This document shows, piece by piece, positions 2,428 to 20,852 of a stretch of DNA of 25,038 nt; position 1 is the stretch's first letter; each line of letters starts with the position of its first letter. Below the pieces are notes generated by a model. The model saw only the letters and a list, made by a program, of their open reading frames with translations. It made no database searches and had not been told where the DNA came from. This stretch comes from a virus, in the IMG/VR virus record IMGVR_UViG_3300030333_000871, positions 1-25,038 of that record; one strand, given 5' to 3'. Position numbers and translations under genes: made by a program.

Positions 2428-2822
2428 TTTTTACCCCCCTTATTCAGTTTTGTTCTAATGTAATCTAGTTGTTGTGGAGATAAAATCCTCAAAGCCTGCT
2501 TTGCTTTTTCATTACTATAACCATAGTATTGCTTAACAAGATCAAGATCATCTATCTTTTGTTTCTTACCCCAAGGAGAAAATCTCTTTCGGGGTCTCAC
2601 GATATTTATAAGAAAATCATATTGTAACTTCTTATCTAGACCTGAATAAAGGTTCATTTCATTAGCAAATGCTAGTGTATCCATATGATGTGACAAGCAT
2701 TTGTTAATGATATATGCTGGATAATTCTTTTCCCATGCAGGATCTTCATCCATTAAGTAATCTTTATTAAGATTAATGGAATTCAGATAATCTTTAAGAG
2801 GATAACGATCATCGTATGGCAT
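2424..2822 (-). CDS. gp62: Clamp loader small subunit gp62
   Basis: Gp62 joins four gp44 subunits to form the clamp loader that opens and places the gp45 ring on DNA. The protein has 132 residues, shorter than T4 gp62 (187), as is common in cyanophages. Recognisable features are the N-terminal YPLKDYLNSINLNKDYLMDE region, the YIINKCLSHHMDTLAFANEMN helix pair and the central RPRKRFSPWGKK block. The latter is a basic segment that fits contact with DNA or the clamp. It lies between dam (14-nt overlap) and regA (ATGA overlap). The position before regA, downstream of 44 and 45, agrees with the T4 order apart from inserted genes. Confidence 0.9.
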   Translation of the reverse strand: MPYDDRYPLKDYLNSINLNKDYLMDEDPAWEKNYPAYIINKCLSHHMDTLAFANEMNLYSGLDKKLQYDFLINIVRPRKRFSPWGKKQKIDDLDLVKQYYGYSNEKAKQALRILSPQQLDYIRTKLNKGGKK

Positions 2823-3633
2823 AATTTAATAAAAGCAACTCTTTACGTTCTTGCTGATTCTTCATATAATCACCTACTGATCTCATAGTATATGTGTGAT
2901 CGTATTCTTGTGCATCCCAATCCATAAACCTTTCTAAGATTTCATTTGCCGAATTGTAAGAAACCATCATAGGACCACACCACTTGTCACAGTTCTCAAA
3001 GAACTTTTCATGGTCGAAGTACTTGTGCATCCCTCCTTTCTTTCCATACAAGTTCGATCCGATTGCGTAAGGAGGATCAAGATATGTAAAAGTATCCATA
3101 CTATCAGTGTAAAGTTCTTGGTATTCTTTGTTGGTAATTTTCCAATCTTGAATGACATCACTATACTCCACTAATTTTTCGATACCTCTCATTGAGAAAT
3201 TAGAATCACTTGCCTGTGCTGAGAAAGAACTCGATTGAGTAAGACCACTAAAACTACATTTGTTCACAACATAGAAAGCTACTGCTCTATCTTGATCATT
3301 ACCTGCATCTATTCTTCCCTTCATTTCTATAAAAAGACATCTTGCAGAATCTTGATTAGGATGAGCAATTTTTAAATTGCTCAATTCTTTTTGAAGTTCT
3401 TTACCATTGTCTCTTAACTGTTTCCAGAAATTAACCAATGGTTCATACAAGTCATTAACCCATATATCCAAATCAGGGTACATCTGTGTAACATACAATG
3501 CTACAGATCCACCACCAATAAAAGGTTCCCTGTATGATTTAAACTTAGAGAAGTTAGGAAAGAATTGTGCCATTTTTTTAACGGCACGTGACTTACCACC
3601 AGGATATCTAAGAGGGGTCTTTAAAGAACTCAT
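2809..3633 (-). CDS. dam: DNA adenine methyltransferase, Dam (D12 class)
   Basis: This 274-residue protein transfers a methyl group from S-adenosylmethionine to N6 of adenine in DNA. Diagnostic motifs are the N-terminal LRYPGGKSR (8-16), the SAM-binding EPFIGGGS (36-43) and the catalytic LDPPY (185-189). VNKCSFSG (123-130) also fits the D12 family. GATC is the usual target of this family but cannot be read from the sequence. The start at 3633 overlaps the upstream gene by 4 nt (ATGA), and the end overlaps 62 by 14 nt, so the enzyme is made with the replication proteins. Likely roles are protection from host or rival nucleases, or strand marking. Confidence 0.9.
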   Translation of the reverse strand: MSSLKTPLRYPGGKSRAVKKMAQFFPNFSKFKSYREPFIGGGSVALYVTQMYPDLDIWVNDLYEPLVNFWKQLRDNGKELQKELSNLKIAHPNQDSARCLFIEMKGRIDAGNDQDRAVAFYVVNKCSFSGLTQSSSFSAQASDSNFSMRGIEKLVEYSDVIQDWKITNKEYQELYTDSMDTFTYLDPPYAIGSNLYGKKGGMHKYFDHEKFFENCDKWCGPMMVSYNSANEILERFMDWDAQEYDHTYTMRSVGDYMKNQQERKELLLLNYAIR

Positions 3634-3824
3634 CTGTCTTTTAACTCTCTATACTTGATACGAATTTGATCTTTTAACCATGCAGATCTACTCGTTGCAC
3701 AATCATCTTTTACTAACTGGTCAAGACATTCTATAAGCGGTCCTTCATTTTGACCAAAAGAAAGATTGATGATATTGCCACCTTTACGATCTTTTAATTC
3801 GGCGACACTTTTTCTAGCTGGCAT
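3630..3824 (-). CDS. Small charged protein, ribbon-helix-helix-like C-terminus
   Basis: This 64-residue protein is conserved-looking and charged. The C-terminal half (about 26-62: an LIECLDQLV helix, then ATSRSAWLKDQIR, then KYRELKDR) has the spacing of a ribbon-helix-helix DNA-binding or antitoxin-like fold, in which SRSAWLKDQI would be the second helix. The N-terminal MPARKSVAELKDRKGGNIINLSFG could supply the strand. I see no toxin partner nearby. It overlaps pyrE by 11 nt and dam by 4 nt. The RHH assignment is a guess from pattern only. Confidence 0.65.
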   Translation of the reverse strand: MPARKSVAELKDRKGGNIINLSFGQNEGPLIECLDQLVKDDCATSRSAWLKDQIRIKYRELKDR

Positions 3825-4380
3825 TAGTAATTTCCTCCAAGTTGTAAATGCTGTAAAGTTCTAGTCCTTCTGATTCCATTGCTTCATCTATCTCTACATC
3901 TTCCTGACGATTGACAATAGAAACAACACGTTCTACACAATAACCTGCATCACGCAATTTATGTGCTGCCTTAATAGCAGATGCACCTGTTGTAACTACA
4001 TCCTCTAACACTGTAACACGAGAACCTTTTTCTGGCAAGGGGCCTTCTATCCATGCTCCCGTACCATGACCTTTAGGTTCTTTACGAACAATTAATCCAT
4101 TGATAGTTTGCTCATCCAATGCTGCTGCCATAGCAACACCACTGACAAGGGGATCAGCACCAAGAGTAAGTCCTCCTACTGCTACACTTGCTTCTTCAAT
4201 GAAGTCAAGCATCATAAAACTAACATAACATAATCCTCTACAATGTAAAGTAAGTGGTTTACAATTAACATAGTGAGGACTAATCTTACCTGAAGAAAGT
4301 TTGTATTCACCTTTACGGTAACAATCTTCCTTTAACATCCGTAATACTTCTTCACGCATGTCAGCAATATCATAAATCAT
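3814..4380 (-). CDS. pyrE: Orotate phosphoribosyltransferase
   Basis: PyrE joins orotate to PRPP, giving OMP in pyrimidine synthesis. The start at 4380 (MIYDIADMREE) gives 188 residues and only an 11-nt overlap with the upstream gene; a longer reading to 4491 would lie inside that gene. Visible features are FKLSSGK-type substrate residues (KLSSGKISPHYVNCK, about 27-41), the RKEPKGHGTG flexible catalytic loop (99-108) and the PRPP loop VLEDVVTTGAS (124-134). All are typical of OPRTases near the usual length. No other pyrimidine gene is in the window, so the phage seems to boost one step of the host pathway for nucleotide supply. The gene sits inside the replication operon. Confidence 0.9.
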   Translation of the reverse strand: MIYDIADMREEVLRMLKEDCYRKGEYKLSSGKISPHYVNCKPLTLHCRGLCYVSFMMLDFIEEASVAVGGLTLGADPLVSGVAMAAALDEQTINGLIVRKEPKGHGTGAWIEGPLPEKGSRVTVLEDVVTTGASAIKAAHKLRDAGYCVERVVSIVNRQEDVEIDEAMESEGLELYSIYNLEEITNAS

Positions 4381-4558
4381 TGTCTTCACCTGCTTCAAAT
4401 TCTTCAATCTGATCAACATAAACCTCGTTGCCAGCAATATTATATTTGTGGCCACGTTCATCTTCACCAAGATATTCAAGGGCATTCTCACCAGAGAATG
4501 TATGTTCTCTTAAGACTGCCTGAAGTCTATGGTGTAATAGTTCTACTTTAGTAATCAT
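4370..4558 (-). CDS. Small acidic protein of unknown function
   Basis: The product has 62 residues and a strongly acidic C-terminus (EEFEAGEDNDL). The middle (LEYLGEDERGHKYNIAGNEVYVDQIEEF) looks like a small beta-rich domain. The start ATG overlaps the stop of the preceding gene by 4 nt, and the end overlaps pyrE by 11 nt, which supports it being translated. I do not recognise it. Possible roles include a small acidic regulator or DNA mimic, but nothing specific supports that. Confidence 0.65.
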   Translation of the reverse strand: MITKVELLHHRLQAVLREHTFSGENALEYLGEDERGHKYNIAGNEVYVDQIEEFEAGEDNDL

Positions 4559-4797: not shown

Positions 4798-5012
4798 CTT
4801 ATTATCATAGGATCATCCCACATAGATTGGGGTGGTCTTACATCTAATATTATAGGTGAATCTAACACTTTTTCAAGTGCTTCTGACATCCTATTAAATC
4901 CATTACCAACATGCATTTGACCAGCAAATACAGATACAGTAGCAGCACCCCAGAAGATATAATACCATCTGGATTTAACTTGTGCTCTTAATTTTCGTTT
5001 GTCTTTAGTCAT
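4794..5012 (-). CDS. Small single-span membrane protein
   Basis: The product has 72 residues with a basic N-terminus (TKDKRKLRAQVKSR) followed by one hydrophobic segment at about 17-32 (YYIFWGAATVSVFAGQ). The positive-inside rule places the N-terminus in the cytoplasm. The C-terminal 40 residues are soluble and end in a Pro-rich DVRPPQSMWDDP stretch. It overlaps gene 44 and the next small membrane gene by 4 nt on each side. Unknown function. Its place directly after the clamp loader ATPase suggests only shared early expression. Confidence 0.65.
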   Translation of the reverse strand: MTKDKRKLRAQVKSRWYYIFWGAATVSVFAGQMHVGNGFNRMSEALEKVLDSPIILDVRPPQSMWDDPMIIR

Positions 5013-5950
5013 TTAAAATTACACTCCAACATTATCTGGGTGAGACAAGCCAATAGGTTTATCTCTTGATCTACAACGAACGCAGACTTATATTGATACT
5101 CTGCGATAATCAATACCGCAGCAGCAACACTAGGTCCATCCATCATAGGACTAAGATTATCATATAACTTTCGCATAATAATCGTAGCATCACTATCTAG
5201 GTTTTGTGTAACCCACTTCTTAACCTCAGCAAACTTCTTATCTTTAAGACATAATACTAAACTATCAATGTTAGCATCACCTAGCGTTGCGAGGATTCCA
5301 GTATCGATAGAACCTGTTGAACTATATCTTTGGAGTTCATTGAGTGTTCTTCTGAAGTCTGGGAAGTATTTTTGGATGATTTCGACAACCACTTTGTCAT
5401 TGAACCGTACTTCCTCTCTGGTAAGGATGTCTCTACACCTTTCAAAGAACTGTGCTGCAAGAGCTTGTTTAGATTTTCCACGAACATTAAAATCAATTAC
5501 TGTTGTTCTACTATGTAATGGTTCTATGATTTTATTCTTAAAGTTACACGTGAATATGAAACGGCAGTTTTTCTGGAACTCCTCAATCGAGGCCCGTAAG
5601 AGGAGTTGTACGTCGGGTGTCGTATTGTCTGCTTCATCAATAATAAGAACCTTATGACGAGATTCAGATGTAAGAGAAACAGTAGCAGCAAAGGTCTTTG
5701 CCTGATTGCGTACAGTGTCCAAGAATCGACCCTCATCAGACCCATTAATGACATAAAAATCTGCTCCTAATTCATTACACAATGCTTTCGCTATTGTAGT
5801 CTTGCCAACACCAGCAGTTCCAGACAAAAGGAGATTCGGTATCTCACCTTGATCTATAAAACTCTGGAAGGTGGTCTTCACTTCAGTAGGAAGTATACAT
5901 TCCTCAACTTTCTGAGGTCGATACTTCTCTACCCATAAAAAATCATTCAT
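5009..5950 (-). CDS. gp44: Clamp loader large subunit gp44 (AAA+ ATPase)
   Basis: Gp44 is the ATP-driven motor of the clamp loader. The 313-residue protein starts MNDFLWVEKYRPQKVEECIL, as in RFC/gp44 proteins. Visible motifs are Walker A GTAGVGKTT (44-52), Walker B VLIIDEAD (101-108), sensor 1 FTCN (133-136) and HSRT (146-149), carrying the Arg finger that replaces the SRC motif. The C-terminal third is the helical collar. The length is close to T4 gp44 (319). It overlaps purC and the next small gene by 4 nt each. With 45 and 62 in the same operon, the full clamp system is present. Confidence 0.95.
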   Translation of the reverse strand: MNDFLWVEKYRPQKVEECILPTEVKTTFQSFIDQGEIPNLLLSGTAGVGKTTIAKALCNELGADFYVINGSDEGRFLDTVRNQAKTFAATVSLTSESRHKVLIIDEADNTTPDVQLLLRASIEEFQKNCRFIFTCNFKNKIIEPLHSRTTVIDFNVRGKSKQALAAQFFERCRDILTREEVRFNDKVVVEIIQKYFPDFRRTLNELQRYSSTGSIDTGILATLGDANIDSLVLCLKDKKFAEVKKWVTQNLDSDATIIMRKLYDNLSPMMDGPSVAAAVLIIAEYQYKSAFVVDQEINLLACLTQIMLECNFK

Positions 5951-6642
5951 GCAAATTGCCTCAATTGTACGAGGATGTGCTTATATGCTTCCACTATATC
6001 ACCTTCGTCTTTTCTGAACAAGTCCTTATCAAATCTTTCTTTGGTATCCTTTTTCCAGAGTCGCATGTTGTCAGGTGATAATTCATCAGCCAGGAATAAA
6101 TCGCCGTGAGCATCGTAACCAAACTCCAATTTAAAATCTACAAGGTCAATACCCATAAGGGTGAATAAAGATTGCAACTGGTAATTAATATCCAGTGCTT
6201 GTTCTTTCATAGGTAAAGGATCAATACCCATTAGTCTTACTCTATCATAGGTAAGTAGTGGATCATCCTTAGCATCATCCTTTAAAAAATATTCAACTAT
6301 AGGTGGTTGAATAAATGTTCCTTCAGTGATGTTAGTATTCTTTACTATACTACCAGCAGCAATATTTCTAACAATAACCTCAACAGGTATGATTGTTAGT
6401 TTCTTACAGAGCATAGTATCAAGAGAAGGGCAATTAATATAATGTGATCTAATTCCCCTCTTCTCCAACATCTCAAAAAGTAATGATGATATTAAACAGC
6501 ATGTAGCACCCTTATCTTTAGGGTATTCTACATGCTTACCATTCCATGCAGTAACTCTATCATGGAATTTAATGAGGACTTTTTGTGCGTCCCCTTCTAC
6601 ATCATAAACACTTTTAACTTTTCCTTCTAGGATTGGATTCAT
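5947..6642 (-). CDS. purC: SAICAR synthetase (phosphoribosylaminoimidazole-succinocarboxamide synthase)
   Basis: PurC condenses CAIR with aspartate using ATP to make SAICAR in purine synthesis. The 231-residue length matches bacterial PurC (~237). The N-terminal GKVKSVYDV loop, signature 1 PVEVIVRNIAAGS (86-98), signature 2 LVDFKLEFG (167-175) and DELSPD (186-191) are all intact, so the enzyme is probably active. It is placed between 45 and 44, with 4-nt overlaps on both sides, so the phage makes it together with its clamp and clamp loader. Several cyanophages carry purine genes; this is the only one seen here. Confidence 0.95.
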   Translation of the reverse strand: MNPILEGKVKSVYDVEGDAQKVLIKFHDRVTAWNGKHVEYPKDKGATCCLISSLLFEMLEKRGIRSHYINCPSLDTMLCKKLTIIPVEVIVRNIAAGSIVKNTNITEGTFIQPPIVEYFLKDDAKDDPLLTYDRVRLMGIDPLPMKEQALDINYQLQSLFTLMGIDLVDFKLEFGYDAHGDLFLADELSPDNMRLWKKDTKERFDKDLFRKDEGDIVEAYKHILVQLRQFA

Positions 6643-7298
6643 GTGTTTGGTTCTAATGCAATAAAGTACTTAATACCGTCTCCTTGAAATAGAGCAACAT
6701 TAGTTTTACTAACAGAGACTTGATAAGAACCTGGTAATAGTTTTAAGTTCTCAACTTTAAAACAATAACAGAATTCATCTGTAGTGCTACCAACAGATAC
6801 AGAGAAACTATTAGAACTATCATTCTTCTTATCAGTTACACGAAGTTGAATGTCAGTTCCATCTCCATACAAACAAAGATCTGGAAGTTGATAAACACTT
6901 GCAGCACGTTGTAATTGTGCTAATACATTAGAATCTAATTTAAAATCAACATCAATACTAGGAAGGGTAATTTCCTTTTCTGGAGGTTGAGTAATTACAT
7001 CTGGATCTGCATAAAAGAATCTAGTCTTAGAACGACCAGAAGTATCACTAACTGTTAGATAGTTATCCTTTGAAGTATCAATCTTTGGTTGATCAAATAA
7101 TGATAATCCTCCAAGGAACACTCCCAAATCGTAGATAGAAATCTGAGAATCAAACTGTTCCTCAACATCTGCAATAGCAAGTATGTTCTTATTGATACTT
7201 AATGTTGCAATTTGATTGCCAGGTTTAATGACAATAGATTTGTTAATAGAACAAAAGTTCTTAAGGACTTCAATTGTTGGTTTGGTAATTACAGTCAT
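6639..7298 (-). CDS. gp45: Sliding clamp gp45
   Basis: The 219-residue protein matches the size and style of T4 gp45 (228), a trimeric ring that tethers the DNA polymerase. In T4 it also activates late transcription with gp55 and gp33. Recognisable parts are the opening region (TKPTIEVLKNFCSINKSIVI), ISIYDLGVFLGGLSLFD around 55, and the C-terminal IKYFIALEPN. It is flanked by ATGA overlaps with the DUF3310-like gene and purC. Since gp55 is also in the window, the T4-style link between replication and late transcription is probably kept. Confidence 0.93.
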   Translation of the reverse strand: MTVITKPTIEVLKNFCSINKSIVIKPGNQIATLSINKNILAIADVEEQFDSQISIYDLGVFLGGLSLFDQPKIDTSKDNYLTVSDTSGRSKTRFFYADPDVITQPPEKEITLPSIDVDFKLDSNVLAQLQRAASVYQLPDLCLYGDGTDIQLRVTDKKNDSSNSFSVSVGSTTDEFCYCFKVENLKLLPGSYQVSVSKTNVALFQGDGIKYFIALEPNT

Positions 7299-11805: not shown

Positions 11806-12023
11806 AGTATAACAGGTCTGGGATTATGATGCATGGAAATGGGGACAGTTTTTGAACTGTCACCCCAGTGTCGGATCACGCCCGCAACAATAAAACAATT
11901 AGTAGTAAGATAAGTGAGAAAGATAATAGATCGTACAACGAGTACAATATCATCATACTTCTTGGTCTTGGCATCAGAAAAAGAACCTAATGAATACTTC
12001 CATATCTTCCAAATTTCATTCAT
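11802..12023 (-). CDS. Small single-span membrane protein
   Basis: The 73-residue product starts MNEIWKIWKYSLGSFSDAKTKKYDD, an amphipathic basic N-terminus. A hydrophobic span follows at about 30-49 (RSIIFLTYLTTNCFIVAGVI). The tail is short and Pro/His-containing. It overlaps gene 46 by 8 nt and the VWA gene by 4 nt (ATGA). I do not recognise it by name. A membrane role is inferred from the span alone. Confidence 0.65.
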   Translation of the reverse strand: MNEIWKIWKYSLGSFSDAKTKKYDDIVLVVRSIIFLTYLTTNCFIVAGVIRHWGDSSKTVPISMHHNPRPVIL

Positions 12024-13734
12024 CTTCAGTTAGTTTAGAGAAATCGTTAATTTTTTCAAATCGTAATGTCTTAGGAAACTTCTCTATTAGTATATCACCT
12101 TTATGTGATATGACAAATATATTTGTTGTTTTCCCTAAGTTACCAAGTATAGCAAGTAGTGCTGCTGTACTATCAGCATCTAATGAACTATCAAATACTT
12201 CATCCAGTATAAGAAGATTAGTGGCAGCAGAGTTTTTCATGCGTGCAACTTCTCTCCATGTAAAAAGAAGAGATAAATCAATCTTCTGTTTCTCTCCTTC
12301 AGAGAAAGAAGAATAACTAAACTCATCTCTAAATCTACTTTTAAGGACTTCATTAAACTCCTCGTCGAGAGTGAAGTTAATAAAGAAATCCATACTATGA
12401 AGATATTTATTGATGAGGTTATTAAAAATAGGAACATATTTTCTAATGATTTGTTTCTTAATACCAGAATCTTTTAGTAGATTTGATACTACTTGAAACT
12501 CATCTAATGTTTTACTAACCTGACCACAATCAGTTTTAGTTGTTTCTAAGTCATCTTTATATGCTGTAAGAGTGTGTAATTCTTTTTCAAGTTTTGGAGT
12601 ACTAGTTAAATCATTTAATTCTTTTTCGATCTGTAAATTATCAGATTCCAATCTAAGTATATCCCTATCAAATGCAGATATATCACTTCTCAATTCATGA
12701 GCCTTCATTGATAACTCATCGGCTTTCTCTATGACAGAAACCAGTTCTTCAATAGCTTGTTTTTCTGTGTTATAAGCTTTGGTTAATCCAACACCACTAT
12801 CTGTTAATGAAGATATCTTATTCTCTTTAAAATCTTTATCAATAGACTGGTGACAAGTAGGACAGTCATTGTGTTTCTTAAAGAATTTAATTTCTTTTGT
12901 AACTCTCTTAAGTTCTGAATTTATATCAGATGCTTTACTTCTTAACTCTTGTAGATAAGATCCTTTATCTTCTGTTCCAGATAATTGTTTTTCTAACTCC
13001 TTTAATTCAACTTCTGTATCTAATTTATTACTTTGAGTTGTACTTATTTTAGCCTTATTATGTAATACTTTATCTTCTTTCTCTTGCTTTCTAGTAGTGT
13101 TTATTTCTCTTAAGGATTTTATAAGTTTTTGTTGCGAATTTACCCTCTCTTCTGCCATAGTAAGAAGATAAATACACTCCTTACTTTTTACTTGTGCATC
13201 ACGAACTCTATCCTTAAGGATGGAATTCATGTTTGAGAAGATCTTGATATCGAGTAAATCTTCCACAACTTCTCGCCTGTTAGGTGCGGTAAGTTGCATG
13301 AAGGGGACAAATGTGGATGAACCAAGTATGACGACTTGGGTAAAACTTTTATAGTTGAGTTTGAGGATTGATTGTTCCAGATGTTTTTGCGTGTCCTTGA
13401 CTGCAGCATCTTGGTCAACCATCTTATTGTTTTTGTAAACCTCAAAAAGATTTGGTTTGATCCCTCTGAATACACGATACTCATCCCTCCCTATACTAAA
13501 ATTAACTTCGACTTTTGTACCCTTTTCATTTATACTATTGACTAGTTGACTCTTACTAATCTTACGAAAGGGTCTATTAAATAAAGCAAACGTTAATGCA
13601 TCAAGCATTGTAGATTTGCCAGCACCATTTGATCCAACTATTAAAGTTGCTTTAGAATCATTCAGTGAAATTTCAGTCCATCGATCACCAGTGGAAAGAA
13701 AATTCTTCCACCGAATAGTTTCAAAAAGGATCAT
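12016..13734 (-). CDS. gp46: Recombination endonuclease subunit gp46 (Rad50/SbcC type)
   Basis: Gp46 is the ATPase half of the gp46/gp47 complex that processes DNA ends for phage recombination-dependent replication and host DNA breakdown. The 572-residue protein has the Rad50 layout: Walker A GSNGAGKS (34-41), coiled-coil arms, a zinc hook CPTC (291-294) near the centre, signature motif FSEGEKQK (477-484), Walker B LLILDE (507-512) and the His switch ISHK (542-545). Length is close to T4 gp46 (560). Its partner 47 lies just upstream across one small gene. Overlap with the DUF3110-like gene is ATGA. Confidence 0.95.
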   Translation of the reverse strand: MILFETIRWKNFLSTGDRWTEISLNDSKATLIVGSNGAGKSTMLDALTFALFNRPFRKISKSQLVNSINEKGTKVEVNFSIGRDEYRVFRGIKPNLFEVYKNNKMVDQDAAVKDTQKHLEQSILKLNYKSFTQVVILGSSTFVPFMQLTAPNRREVVEDLLDIKIFSNMNSILKDRVRDAQVKSKECIYLLTMAEERVNSQQKLIKSLREINTTRKQEKEDKVLHNKAKISTTQSNKLDTEVELKELEKQLSGTEDKGSYLQELRSKASDINSELKRVTKEIKFFKKHNDCPTCHQSIDKDFKENKISSLTDSGVGLTKAYNTEKQAIEELVSVIEKADELSMKAHELRSDISAFDRDILRLESDNLQIEKELNDLTSTPKLEKELHTLTAYKDDLETTKTDCGQVSKTLDEFQVVSNLLKDSGIKKQIIRKYVPIFNNLINKYLHSMDFFINFTLDEEFNEVLKSRFRDEFSYSSFSEGEKQKIDLSLLFTWREVARMKNSAATNLLILDEVFDSSLDADSTAALLAILGNLGKTTNIFVISHKGDILIEKFPKTLRFEKINDFSKLTEDE

Positions 13735-19882: not shown

Positions 19883-19965
19883 CTCTAGGGGATGGAGTCG
19901 AACCACCAAGACTAAAAGTCAACACGGAAACAGCGTGTCGCGTTTACCAATTTCGCCACCCTAGA
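19883..19965 (-). tRNA. tRNA with leucine-type body but GUU (Asn) anticodon
   Basis: An 83-nt tRNA folds cleanly. Acceptor UCUAGGG/CCCUAGA pairs over 7 bp; D-arm is GCG/CGC with loop AAAUUGGUAAA; anticodon stem is ACACG/CGUGU; T-arm is GGUGG/CCAUC with loop UUCGACU. The variable arm is 14 nt with a GACU/AGUC stem, as in class II tRNAs. D-arm sequence and the two bases after the variable stem match tRNA-Leu. The 7-nt loop CUGUUUC puts GUU at 34-36, the Asn anticodon. Odd features are U at 37, a U1-A72 pair, and G73 instead of the A73 needed by LeuRS. CCA is not encoded. It begins 8 nt after the synthetase-like gene. Confidence 0.8.
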
Positions 19966-19973
19966 TTGAGGCA

Positions 19974-20774
19974 CTATGAAAGTGCCGAGATTATACGAGT
20001 CATACCAATGCCTCCACCTGATCTTGGGAAGAAATCAAAGGAGAGGAAGTCTTCAAGTTCTTTCTCTACTCTACTTCTACCAAACAGATCTATAATCAGT
20101 TGAGCATATTGTCCATCTGATATAGTGTAAAAGGTATCACGCATTTGATCTTTGTCGGTACTGCGTTCTGCAGAACCTATCGTCTCCATCCCATTGAGAA
20201 TAACATCAATCTTTTTACTTGTGCCATCATCATTACGTGCCATGTTCCAGAATGGTGATGTCCACTCAGGGAAGTCAGTAATCATTCCACGACTAATCTT
20301 CTCTTCATGGTCATGATCAAGTTCTTTAGTGTTAAACTTAGTAGCCCAATCATCATAAGTCTTGATCTTATTCTGTTCGTCTAGTGGTAATCCTAACCAT
20401 CGACATAACTCAATCTCCATATCTTTAAGAGCATCTACACCACCCTTCATTTCAAATTCAAACATGGGGAAGATTGTTTCATGTCTTCCTGGTACAGGAT
20501 TTGGTTCTGCCCTATAGGATGTTGAGACACAGAAAAACCCTTCTGCTGAAGGGTTGGAAAGTAATTCATATTCTAACCACATCTGACCTGTCTGAGGTAG
20601 TGGCCAAATATTACCACCGTAATTATATGTTGCTACTGTTTCTGGATCTTCACAAGCAGCAAGTATACTTAAACGGTTTTGTGTATGGACTTCTAGAAAA
20701 CCTTTAGACAAAAAAAATGACCTTAATAGGTCAACTGCATTGGAGTATTTCTTTGGGTCAATAATACTTGTCAT
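19974..20774 (-). CDS. Stand-alone class IIb aminoacyl-tRNA synthetase core (AsnRS/AspRS-like)
   Basis: The 266-residue protein has all three class II motifs: motif 1 FFLSKGFLEVHT (20-31), motif 2 with TSYRAE (R88, E90) and GRHETIF (R97, H98), and motif 3 GGGIGMTR (R260). PLPQTGQMWLE (58-68) and METIGSAER (196-204) point to the Asp/Asn/Lys subclass, closest in style to AsnRS. ATP and amino acid activation are therefore likely. It starts directly at motif 1: the ~100-residue OB-fold that reads the anticodon is absent. It may charge a tRNA without anticodon reading, act like archaeal AsnA-type asparagine synthetase, or modify a protein like EpmA. A late box lies 20 nt upstream, and the odd tRNA follows after 8 nt. 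Confidence 0.88.
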   Translation of the reverse strand: MTSIIDPKKYSNAVDLLRSFFLSKGFLEVHTQNRLSILAACEDPETVATYNYGGNIWPLPQTGQMWLEYELLSNPSAEGFFCVSTSYRAEPNPVPGRHETIFPMFEFEMKGGVDALKDMEIELCRWLGLPLDEQNKIKTYDDWATKFNTKELDHDHEEKISRGMITDFPEWTSPFWNMARNDDGTSKKIDVILNGMETIGSAERSTDKDQMRDTFYTISDGQYAQLIIDLFGRSRVEKELEDFLSFDFFPRSGGGIGMTRIISALS

Positions 20775-20794: not shown

Positions 20795-20802
20795 TATTTA
20801 TA
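20795..20802 (-). promoter_or_regulatory. Late promoter (TATAAATA), synthetase-like gene and tRNA
   Basis: Perfect match to the T4 late promoter on the minus strand, with predicted start near 20788, about 14 nt before the ATG at 20774. It lies just after the terminator of gene 23, so the synthetase-like gene and tRNA would have their own late transcript, driven by gp55 encoded in this window. Confidence 0.8.
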
Positions 20803-20806
20803 CAAA

Positions 20807-20830
20807 AAAAGAGACCCGAAGGTCTCTTTT
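20807..20830 (-). terminator. Strong hairpin terminator after gene 23
   Basis: Minus strand: AAAAGAGACC, loop TTCG, GGTCTCTTTT, followed by three more T. The 10-bp stem, stable UUCG loop and U run make a textbook intrinsic terminator 22 nt past the capsid gene stop. The mirror sequence would also work on the plus strand. Confidence 0.92.
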
Positions 20831-20852
20831 AAAGTTATGTGTTAATCTCAAA

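Follow-up and report, generated by a model that had tools for sequence, protein, structure and literature searches.

What could a tRNA synthetase catalytic core that lacks the means to read an anticodon be doing in a phage, directly beside a tRNA gene of odd form? The locus that raises this question lies in a virus record of 25,038 bp (the window, by which we mean the whole stretch of DNA that was analyzed), a fragment of a T4-like marine phage whose gp23 is 94% identical to gp23 of Prochlorococcus phage P-SSM3. A preliminary description of this DNA had offered two uses for the pair: a private decoding route for Asn codons in late proteins, or a source of aminoacyl-tRNA for a non-ribosomal purpose. 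Here, we argue that the enzyme and its tRNA are probably a metabolic module and not a translation tool, and that the link of the enzyme family to pyrimidine synthesis is well supported.

The catalytic core and its locus

The features on which the argument draws are the following, all on the minus strand and in window coordinates.

20803..20830, minus strand: intrinsic terminator hairpin, AAAAGAGACC-UUCG-GGUCUCUUUU followed by a U run, at the gp23/enzyme boundary (fold of 20795-20852)
20795..20802, minus strand: TATAAATA, T4-type late promoter-like motif 5' of the enzyme ATG (exact match)
19974..20774, minus strand: AsnRS-like class II catalytic core, 266 aa, without anticodon-binding domain (PF00152, phrog_29758, model, fold match)
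19883..19965, minus strand: class II tRNA-Asn-like gene, 83 nt, U1-A72, G73, CCA not encoded (ARAGORN, Rfam RF00005)
19929..19931, minus strand: anticodon GUU, the same in 129/129 distinct relatives listed (tRNA comparison)
19928..19928, minus strand: U37, a pyrimidine 3' of the anticodon; pyrimidine in 115/129 relatives listed and in 0/44 control tRNAs (tRNA comparison)
3814..4491, minus strand: pyrE, orotate phosphoribosyltransferase, conserved domain from about 4359 (TIGR00336, 131.9 bits)

Reading along the minus strand, gp23 is followed by the terminator hairpin, TATAAATA, the 266-aa ORF, a gap of 8 nt after the stop codon (19966-19973) and the tRNA. The strong terminator that had been said to separate the pair from gene 23 is real, with a predicted fold of -14.7 kcal/mol (z -3.4) for 20795-20852. 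The late promoter described as perfect stands in part: the match to TATAAATA is exact and its placement just 5' of the enzyme start codon is apt, but the motif occurs 3 times in the window against 2.55 expected, so that the motif alone is not rarer than chance.

The whole of the 266-aa ORF is catalytic domain, and an OB-fold or other anticodon-binding domain is absent. It matches PF00152, the class II D/K/N core, over residues 11-265 (E 5e-15) and phrog_29758 (8e-173), a PHROG of unknown function, and an AlphaFold (AF2) model with a pLDDT of 92.5 finds its best structural matches in the catalytic domains of AsnRS and AspRS (1x54, 8h53; E about 1e-17 to 1e-16). Class II motifs 1-3 and the catalytic arginines are present, with R88/E90 of motif 2 and R260 of motif 3 invariant, which together with the PF00152 match and the model bears out the earlier claim of a class IIb core that has intact motifs and no OB-fold. 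E68 (in TGQMxLE) and R204, the equivalents of Asn-pocket residues in AsnRS, are also invariant, and the active site looks Asn-specific on these grounds. All five residues are among the 55 invariant positions common to phage and cell enzymes in a 52-sequence alignment, as are the family-specific C41, P44 and N177; a CEDP loop and a PFWNM motif also mark the family.

Thus, the core shares with class IIb AsnRS its catalytic fold, the motif 2 and motif 3 residues and the pocket equivalents, but differs from it in lacking the OB-fold, in its own CEDP loop and PFWNM motif, and in scoring 21.1 bits against the AsnRS profile TIGR00457, where the curated cut-off is 342.6. The scores for AS-AR/asparagine synthetase A (NF005055, 16.7 bits against 389) and EpmA (NF006828, 20.6 bits against 264) are similarly far beneath their cut-offs, and membership in all three families can be ruled out on these scores; in addition, the Lys-type Glu of EpmA is replaced by Arg204 at the side-chain-binding position of the phage core. 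Synthetase cores without an anticodon domain are known outside translation or in metabolism, such as EpmA/PoxA, a LysRS core acting on EF-P, and HisZ, a HisRS core in histidine synthesis. To our knowledge, neither of these is accompanied by a private tRNA. Membership in a defence system was also considered and dismissed, as PADLOC returned no match for the enzyme.

A tRNA that keeps its charging identity

Three scans of IMG/VR for relatives of the enzyme yielded at least 216 loci, and at least 129 distinct tRNAs adjoin the enzyme at no fewer than 194 loci in marine phages, which rules out a chance pairing. The distance from the enzyme stop codon is 0-25 nt in 98 of the 129 tRNAs listed, four more overlap that codon, and a tRNA adjoins the enzyme in nearly all listed loci that have enough flanking room. 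The same pair is found in P-SSM7, P-SSM2 and P-SSM5, where it is annotated as 'tRNA ligase' and tRNA-Asn. Hence, the co-occurrence that the preliminary description had proposed to look for holds in the phage genomes searched, and the contrary picture, homologues mostly without a neighbouring tRNA, is not seen in phages. About 14 listed phage lineages have no tRNA next to the enzyme although their flanks are long enough to show one. Mapped on an enzyme tree of 176 rows, tRNA presence takes 12 changes, against 59 expected after shuffling, and since the tRNA-less phages are scattered over the tree, the tRNA has been lost or gained on several occasions.

Several minor observations concern these loci. 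In P-SSM2 (NC_006883.2), the RefSeq tRNA-Asn PSSM2_199 is annotated about 2 kb from the true site (locus 6825-6910 versus 4813-4900), which lies inside PSSM2_205, directly 3' of the tRNA ligase gene; its coordinates look shifted relative to GU071092. Upstream of the 'tRNA ligase' of P-SSM7 and in close relatives, tRNA-Ile, tRNA-Arg and tRNA-Leu genes directly precede the enzyme (3721-3944 of the P-SSM7 locus L001), the Leu(UAA) gene being predicted at 73 nt, which is short for a tRNA-Leu. Three contigs of metagenome-assembled genomes titled Chloroflexi, Methylophilaceae and Thaumarchaeota (L139, L147, L148) carry a phage-type enzyme amid viral-looking genes, the first two with the odd tRNA, and are probably misbinned phage contigs. 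Two huge phages (L004, LR756501, 735 kb; L005, LR756508, 484 kb) encode divergent enzymes with 46-48% identity to the window protein; the odd tRNA is absent from both, where ordinary tRNA-Leu genes alone are among the best model matches.

ARAGORN and Rfam RF00005 (47.5 bits) both call the window tRNA at 19883-19965 on the minus strand. It combines the anticodon GUU with a long variable arm, a perfect acceptor stem with U1-A72, G73, U33 and an unusual U37. Over its relatives, cloverleaf pairing is kept in 99.6% of cells and both sides of the helix have changed in 20 of 24 pairs; the strong covariation indicates a functional tRNA structure. The GUU tRNA on a leucine-type body reported 8 nt from the enzyme is therefore present, and its body does resemble tRNA-Leu, the model used to collect its relatives (R1) also retrieving cellular tRNA-Leu genes. 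The likeness ends with the body, however, since a tRNA-Leu would have a Leu anticodon and A73. Nor is the long arm, which was presented as part of the oddity, essential among relatives: these range from 74 to 108 nt and from class I to a variable region of 39 nt, so that body and variable arm alike tolerate change, and the arm can be ruled out as an identity element. The unusual U37 has to be added to the oddities of this tRNA.

What the enzyme-linked tRNAs hold constant is their asparagine-charging identity, whereas the form required for decoding is broken. In addition to the invariant GUU, the tRNAs listed have G73 in 125/126 and U1-A72 in 124/126; the search model was built from GUU tRNAs, but a relative with one altered anticodon base would still have been picked up. 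In bacteria, GUU and G73 specify Asn identity, and the amidation of Asp-tRNA-Asn by GatCAB is directed by U1-A72 (PMC9976931). By comparison, a pyrimidine occupies position 37 in 115 of the 129 tRNAs (p=4e-29 versus controls) and 24 have a base other than U at position 33 (p=7e-4), while U33 and purine 37 are found in all 44 other tRNAs from the same contigs. Without an OB-fold, the core cannot be what keeps GUU constant, and the constraint must come from elsewhere. The ribosome fits badly with C33 and U37 in these tRNAs, which suggests that a host synthetase (AsnRS or a non-discriminating AspRS) reads GUU.

These positions bear directly on the suggestion that the tRNA receives Asn from the core beside it and reads AAC/AAU in (late) phage proteins. 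The tight and conserved pairing, the Asn-type active site with invariant E68 and R204, the constant GUU and the late-type promoter motif would all suit such a private translation pair. However, tRNAs that break the U33 and purine-37 rules, as 0/44 controls do, make a private decoding tRNA unlikely, and the core itself could not read GUU. Moreover, phage G040 encodes both a canonical tRNA-Asn (CUGUUAA), in its tRNA cluster, and the odd tRNA (CCGUUUA), beside the enzyme, a search for Asn enrichment in late genes gave nothing clear, and cellular relatives of the core are tied to pyrimidine genes, with a full AsnRS alongside in 10 of 26 genomes (see below). We consider private decoding of Asn codons fairly improbable for these reasons. 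Phage tRNAs are known to evade tRNA-cutting defences by loop mutations, and changes that concentrate at positions 33 and 37 and spare the anticodon would agree with a tRNA whose loop has been modified so that a host anticodon nuclease no longer cuts it, the enzyme merely recharging it. Yet U37 would still impair decoding, the enzyme is without a PADLOC match, and the association with pyr genes and the exclusion of PyrB would be left unexplained; nuclease resistance is very unlikely to be the answer.

Pyrimidine genes around the enzyme family

A scan of GTDB genomes gave 129 contigs with relatives of the enzyme, of which the best 80 were kept; these share 45-54% identity with L004, the member from a huge phage. 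Among the best 80 of 129 cellular loci, PyrE/PyrF lies within 5.5 kb in 26 and PyrD in 20, and the pyr-linked loci come from Gamma- and Alphaproteobacteria, Chlamydiae, Bacteroidota, Myxococcota, Dependentiae and Patescibacteria. The genomes that carry the enzyme largely lack the first half of the pathway: across 26 enzyme-bearing genomes, matches over the cut-off were found for PyrB in 2, PyrC_multi in 1, CarB in 2 and PyrD in 21, as against 14/14, 11/14, 14/14 and 14/14 in the control genomes. The PyrC counts come from PyrC_multi, one of two PyrC models (the second is TIGR00856), and several Bacteroidota genomes contain PyrC-like proteins under the cut-off. The exceptions are G020, where PyrB and PyrC accompany the enzyme, G027 with PyrB, and G017 and G022 with CarB; the five genomes in which PyrD is absent are small or draft. 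Lesser PyrB matches (104-148 bits) in four genomes were rejected, as they are ornithine carbamoyltransferases. The mutual exclusion is also seen within one clade, the order of Aureispira, where the enzyme occurs in 7 of 150 genomes, with PyrB found in none of these seven compared with 124 of the remaining 143 (Fisher p=2e-6); Chlamydiota, with the enzyme in 3/192, offered too few cases for a test clade.

Since 10 of the 26 genomes also encode a full AsnRS, the core is not a mere substitute AsnRS in cells, and the simplest reading of the cellular members is a non-orthologous replacement by the enzyme of the pathway's first half. Replacement of CarAB/PyrB/PyrC is seen among the cellular members, with the PyrB exceptions G020 and G027; neighbourhood or co-occurrence with pyrD/pyrE/pyrF is found in cells and phages alike. 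We regard a pyrimidine role of the cellular family as highly likely. The core would then deliver to PyrD the same intermediate as CarAB-PyrB-PyrC, with an unrelated fold and, if this is right, by a different chemistry that uses Asn instead of carbamoyl phosphate and Asp.

The same evidence bears on whether the enzyme might make Asn from Asp and ammonia, as do AsnA and the AsnRS-derived archaeal AS-AR. Like the core, these have an AsnRS/AspRS-like catalytic domain without an anticodon domain that was recruited to metabolism, and there is weak profile similarity to 3p8t. However, the sequences are very distant, as the NF005055 score attests, the neighbours are different, a dedicated tRNA accompanies the phage core, and its side-chain pocket is Asn-type, not Asp-type. 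Asparagine synthesis would also leave the pyrD/E/F linkage and the loss of PyrB unexplained, and AsnB already co-occurs in 12 of the 26 genomes, so we give this explanation hardly any weight.

In phages, pyrimidine genes accompany the enzyme as well. The window pyrE scores 131.9 bits with TIGR00336 (cut-off 106.8), and among Prochlorococcus phage records PyrE of this type occurs only in the six that bear the enzyme (three of P-SSM2, one of P-SSM5, two of P-SSM7), which represent two independent lineages and not six. Records named Synechococcus or 'Cyanophage' in which gp23 is present number at least 449, and neither gene was found in any of them. The large IMG/VR phages with the enzyme include two with PyrE (G037 and G030, the latter without the adjacent tRNA) and one with a PyrD-like gene (G029); no pyr genes were found in three others (G039-G041), and one further phage sequence ends at the enzyme. 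Other phage copies of the enzyme have PyrE-like or ThyX genes in their vicinity. It is likely, if less so than for the cellular family, that the enzyme has the same pyrimidine role in phages.

Two groups of small proteins recur near the enzyme. One is a short and divergent PyrD-like protein of 233-274 aa (L139 5324-6025, L115 8356-9180, G029 about 11984-12694), which falls under or barely over dihydroorotate dehydrogenase cut-offs and is present in phage-like and bacterial loci. The other consists of compact PyrE-like phosphoribosyltransferases of 125-159 aa (L260 5510-5887, L219 3749-4141, L103 7428-7907), a family of phages and bacteria that NCBIfam and PHROGs hardly recognize.

A candidate route from asparagine to dihydroorotate

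Given the two uses first proposed, a non-ribosomal one fits better than private decoding, and its setting, to judge from the cellular relatives, would be pyrimidine synthesis. As the best overall explanation, which we hold tentatively and at somewhat less than an even chance, the core would feed pyrimidine synthesis upstream of PyrD, and the phage tRNA would be a dedicated, non-decoding carrier of asparagine. A stand-alone AsnRS core would thus supply PyrD in many bacteria, in place of CarAB, PyrB and PyrC, and marine phages would pair it with pyrE to obtain pyrimidines for DNA replication.

The pairing, the tRNA anomalies, the linkage to pyr genes and the mutual exclusion with PyrB are observed, whereas the substrate, the product and the direction in which the tRNA is used are what we infer, as follows. 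The core would activate the alpha-carboxyl of asparagine as Asn-AMP, the normal half-reaction of AsnRS; bicarbonate or CO2 would turn Asn-AMP into the N-carboxyanhydride; and the side-chain amide nitrogen would attack the C2 carbonyl of this anhydride, closing the six-membered ring of dihydroorotate and freeing the alpha-carboxylate. The sum, Asn + CO2 - H2O = dihydroorotate, balances, and aminoacyl adenylates are known to give N-carboxyanhydrides rapidly with CO2 (PMC6462974). This conversion of Asn into dihydroorotate, argued from stoichiometry and mechanism, is a possibility that we put forward with clear reservation. On the side of the tRNA, GUU, G73 and U1-A72 would allow loading with Asn by the host AsnRS, or by a non-discriminating AspRS and GatCAB, the abnormal positions 33 and 37 would exclude the tRNA from translation, and the anticodon-blind core would take Asn off the acceptor end, either directly or by reversal of the AsnRS reaction. 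Whether a non-decoding asparagine carrier is the right description of the tRNA is in our judgement close to an even call, leaning slightly against. The combination of all these elements, a tRNA-dependent pyrimidine synthesis in which a host-loaded, non-decoding tRNA serves an anticodon-blind core that makes dihydroorotate from Asn and CO2 in one step and bypasses carbamoyl phosphate synthetase, aspartate transcarbamoylase and dihydroorotase, is rather unlikely to be correct in every part.

The role of the tRNA is also where the cellular and phage members part. No dedicated tRNA was seen in the cellular genomes with the enzyme; the best R1 matches there are ordinary tRNA-Leu, tRNA-Ser or tRNA-Tyr genes apart from those on two phage-like contigs. 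The tRNA is consequently not needed family-wide, unless housekeeping tRNA-Asn serves. Such cellular enzymes could indicate that the pyrimidine enzyme is independent of tRNA throughout and that the phage tRNA is simply one more tRNA-Asn, charged by the host, which makes up in translation for the Asn that the enzyme consumes, and phages with PyrE and no tRNA, as well as the range of tRNA bodies from class I to long class II, agree with this. A mere supplement would sit poorly, however, with the decoding anomalies at 33 and 37 and with a tRNA that is almost always directly beside one gene, that of the enzyme, while other phage tRNAs are clustered elsewhere; we judge this reading unlikely. Returning to the carrier role, tRNA acts as an amino-acid carrier for metabolism in tetrapyrrole synthesis from Glu-tRNA and in tRNA-dependent Asn synthesis by GatCAB. 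Those systems use housekeeping tRNA, whereas the phage tRNA is separate and breaks decoding rules.

De novo pyrimidine synthesis has long been described as a single universal six-step route. If the proposal is right, there would be a second entrance to it, built from a tRNA synthetase core, shared by many groups of bacteria and archaea and exploited by phages that abound in the ocean, which would explain how UMP is made in genomes that have pyrD/E/F but lack carAB/pyrB/pyrC. Pyrimidines would moreover join the few pathways that may use tRNA as a carrier, and the phage tRNAs would be a family in which charging identity is kept and decoding lost. The well-supported part is by itself enough to assign a likely function to the 'tRNA ligase'/phrog_29758 family, as a synthetase core recruited to metabolism. 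In the open literature, we found no report of pyrimidine-linked AsnRS paralogues, of tRNA-dependent pyrimidine synthesis or of a cyanophage or Prochlorococcus AsnRS; subscription journals and preprints lay outside this search, and prior publication there is possible.

Finally, other genes in the wider neighbourhood deserve mention. Judged by eye, the window also encodes, on the minus strand, a PurC-like (SAICAR synthetase) protein of nucleotide metabolism at 5947-6642 and a Dam-like adenine methylase, a DNA modification gene, at 2809-3633. In nine phage loci (L208 561-1835, L198 and L213-L215 among them), nucleotidyltransferase-like genes (MKTVVFTFGRFNPPTTGH...) lie within about 6 kb of the enzyme, and the corresponding protein of P-SSM2 is the 'cytidyltransferase' PSSM2_194.
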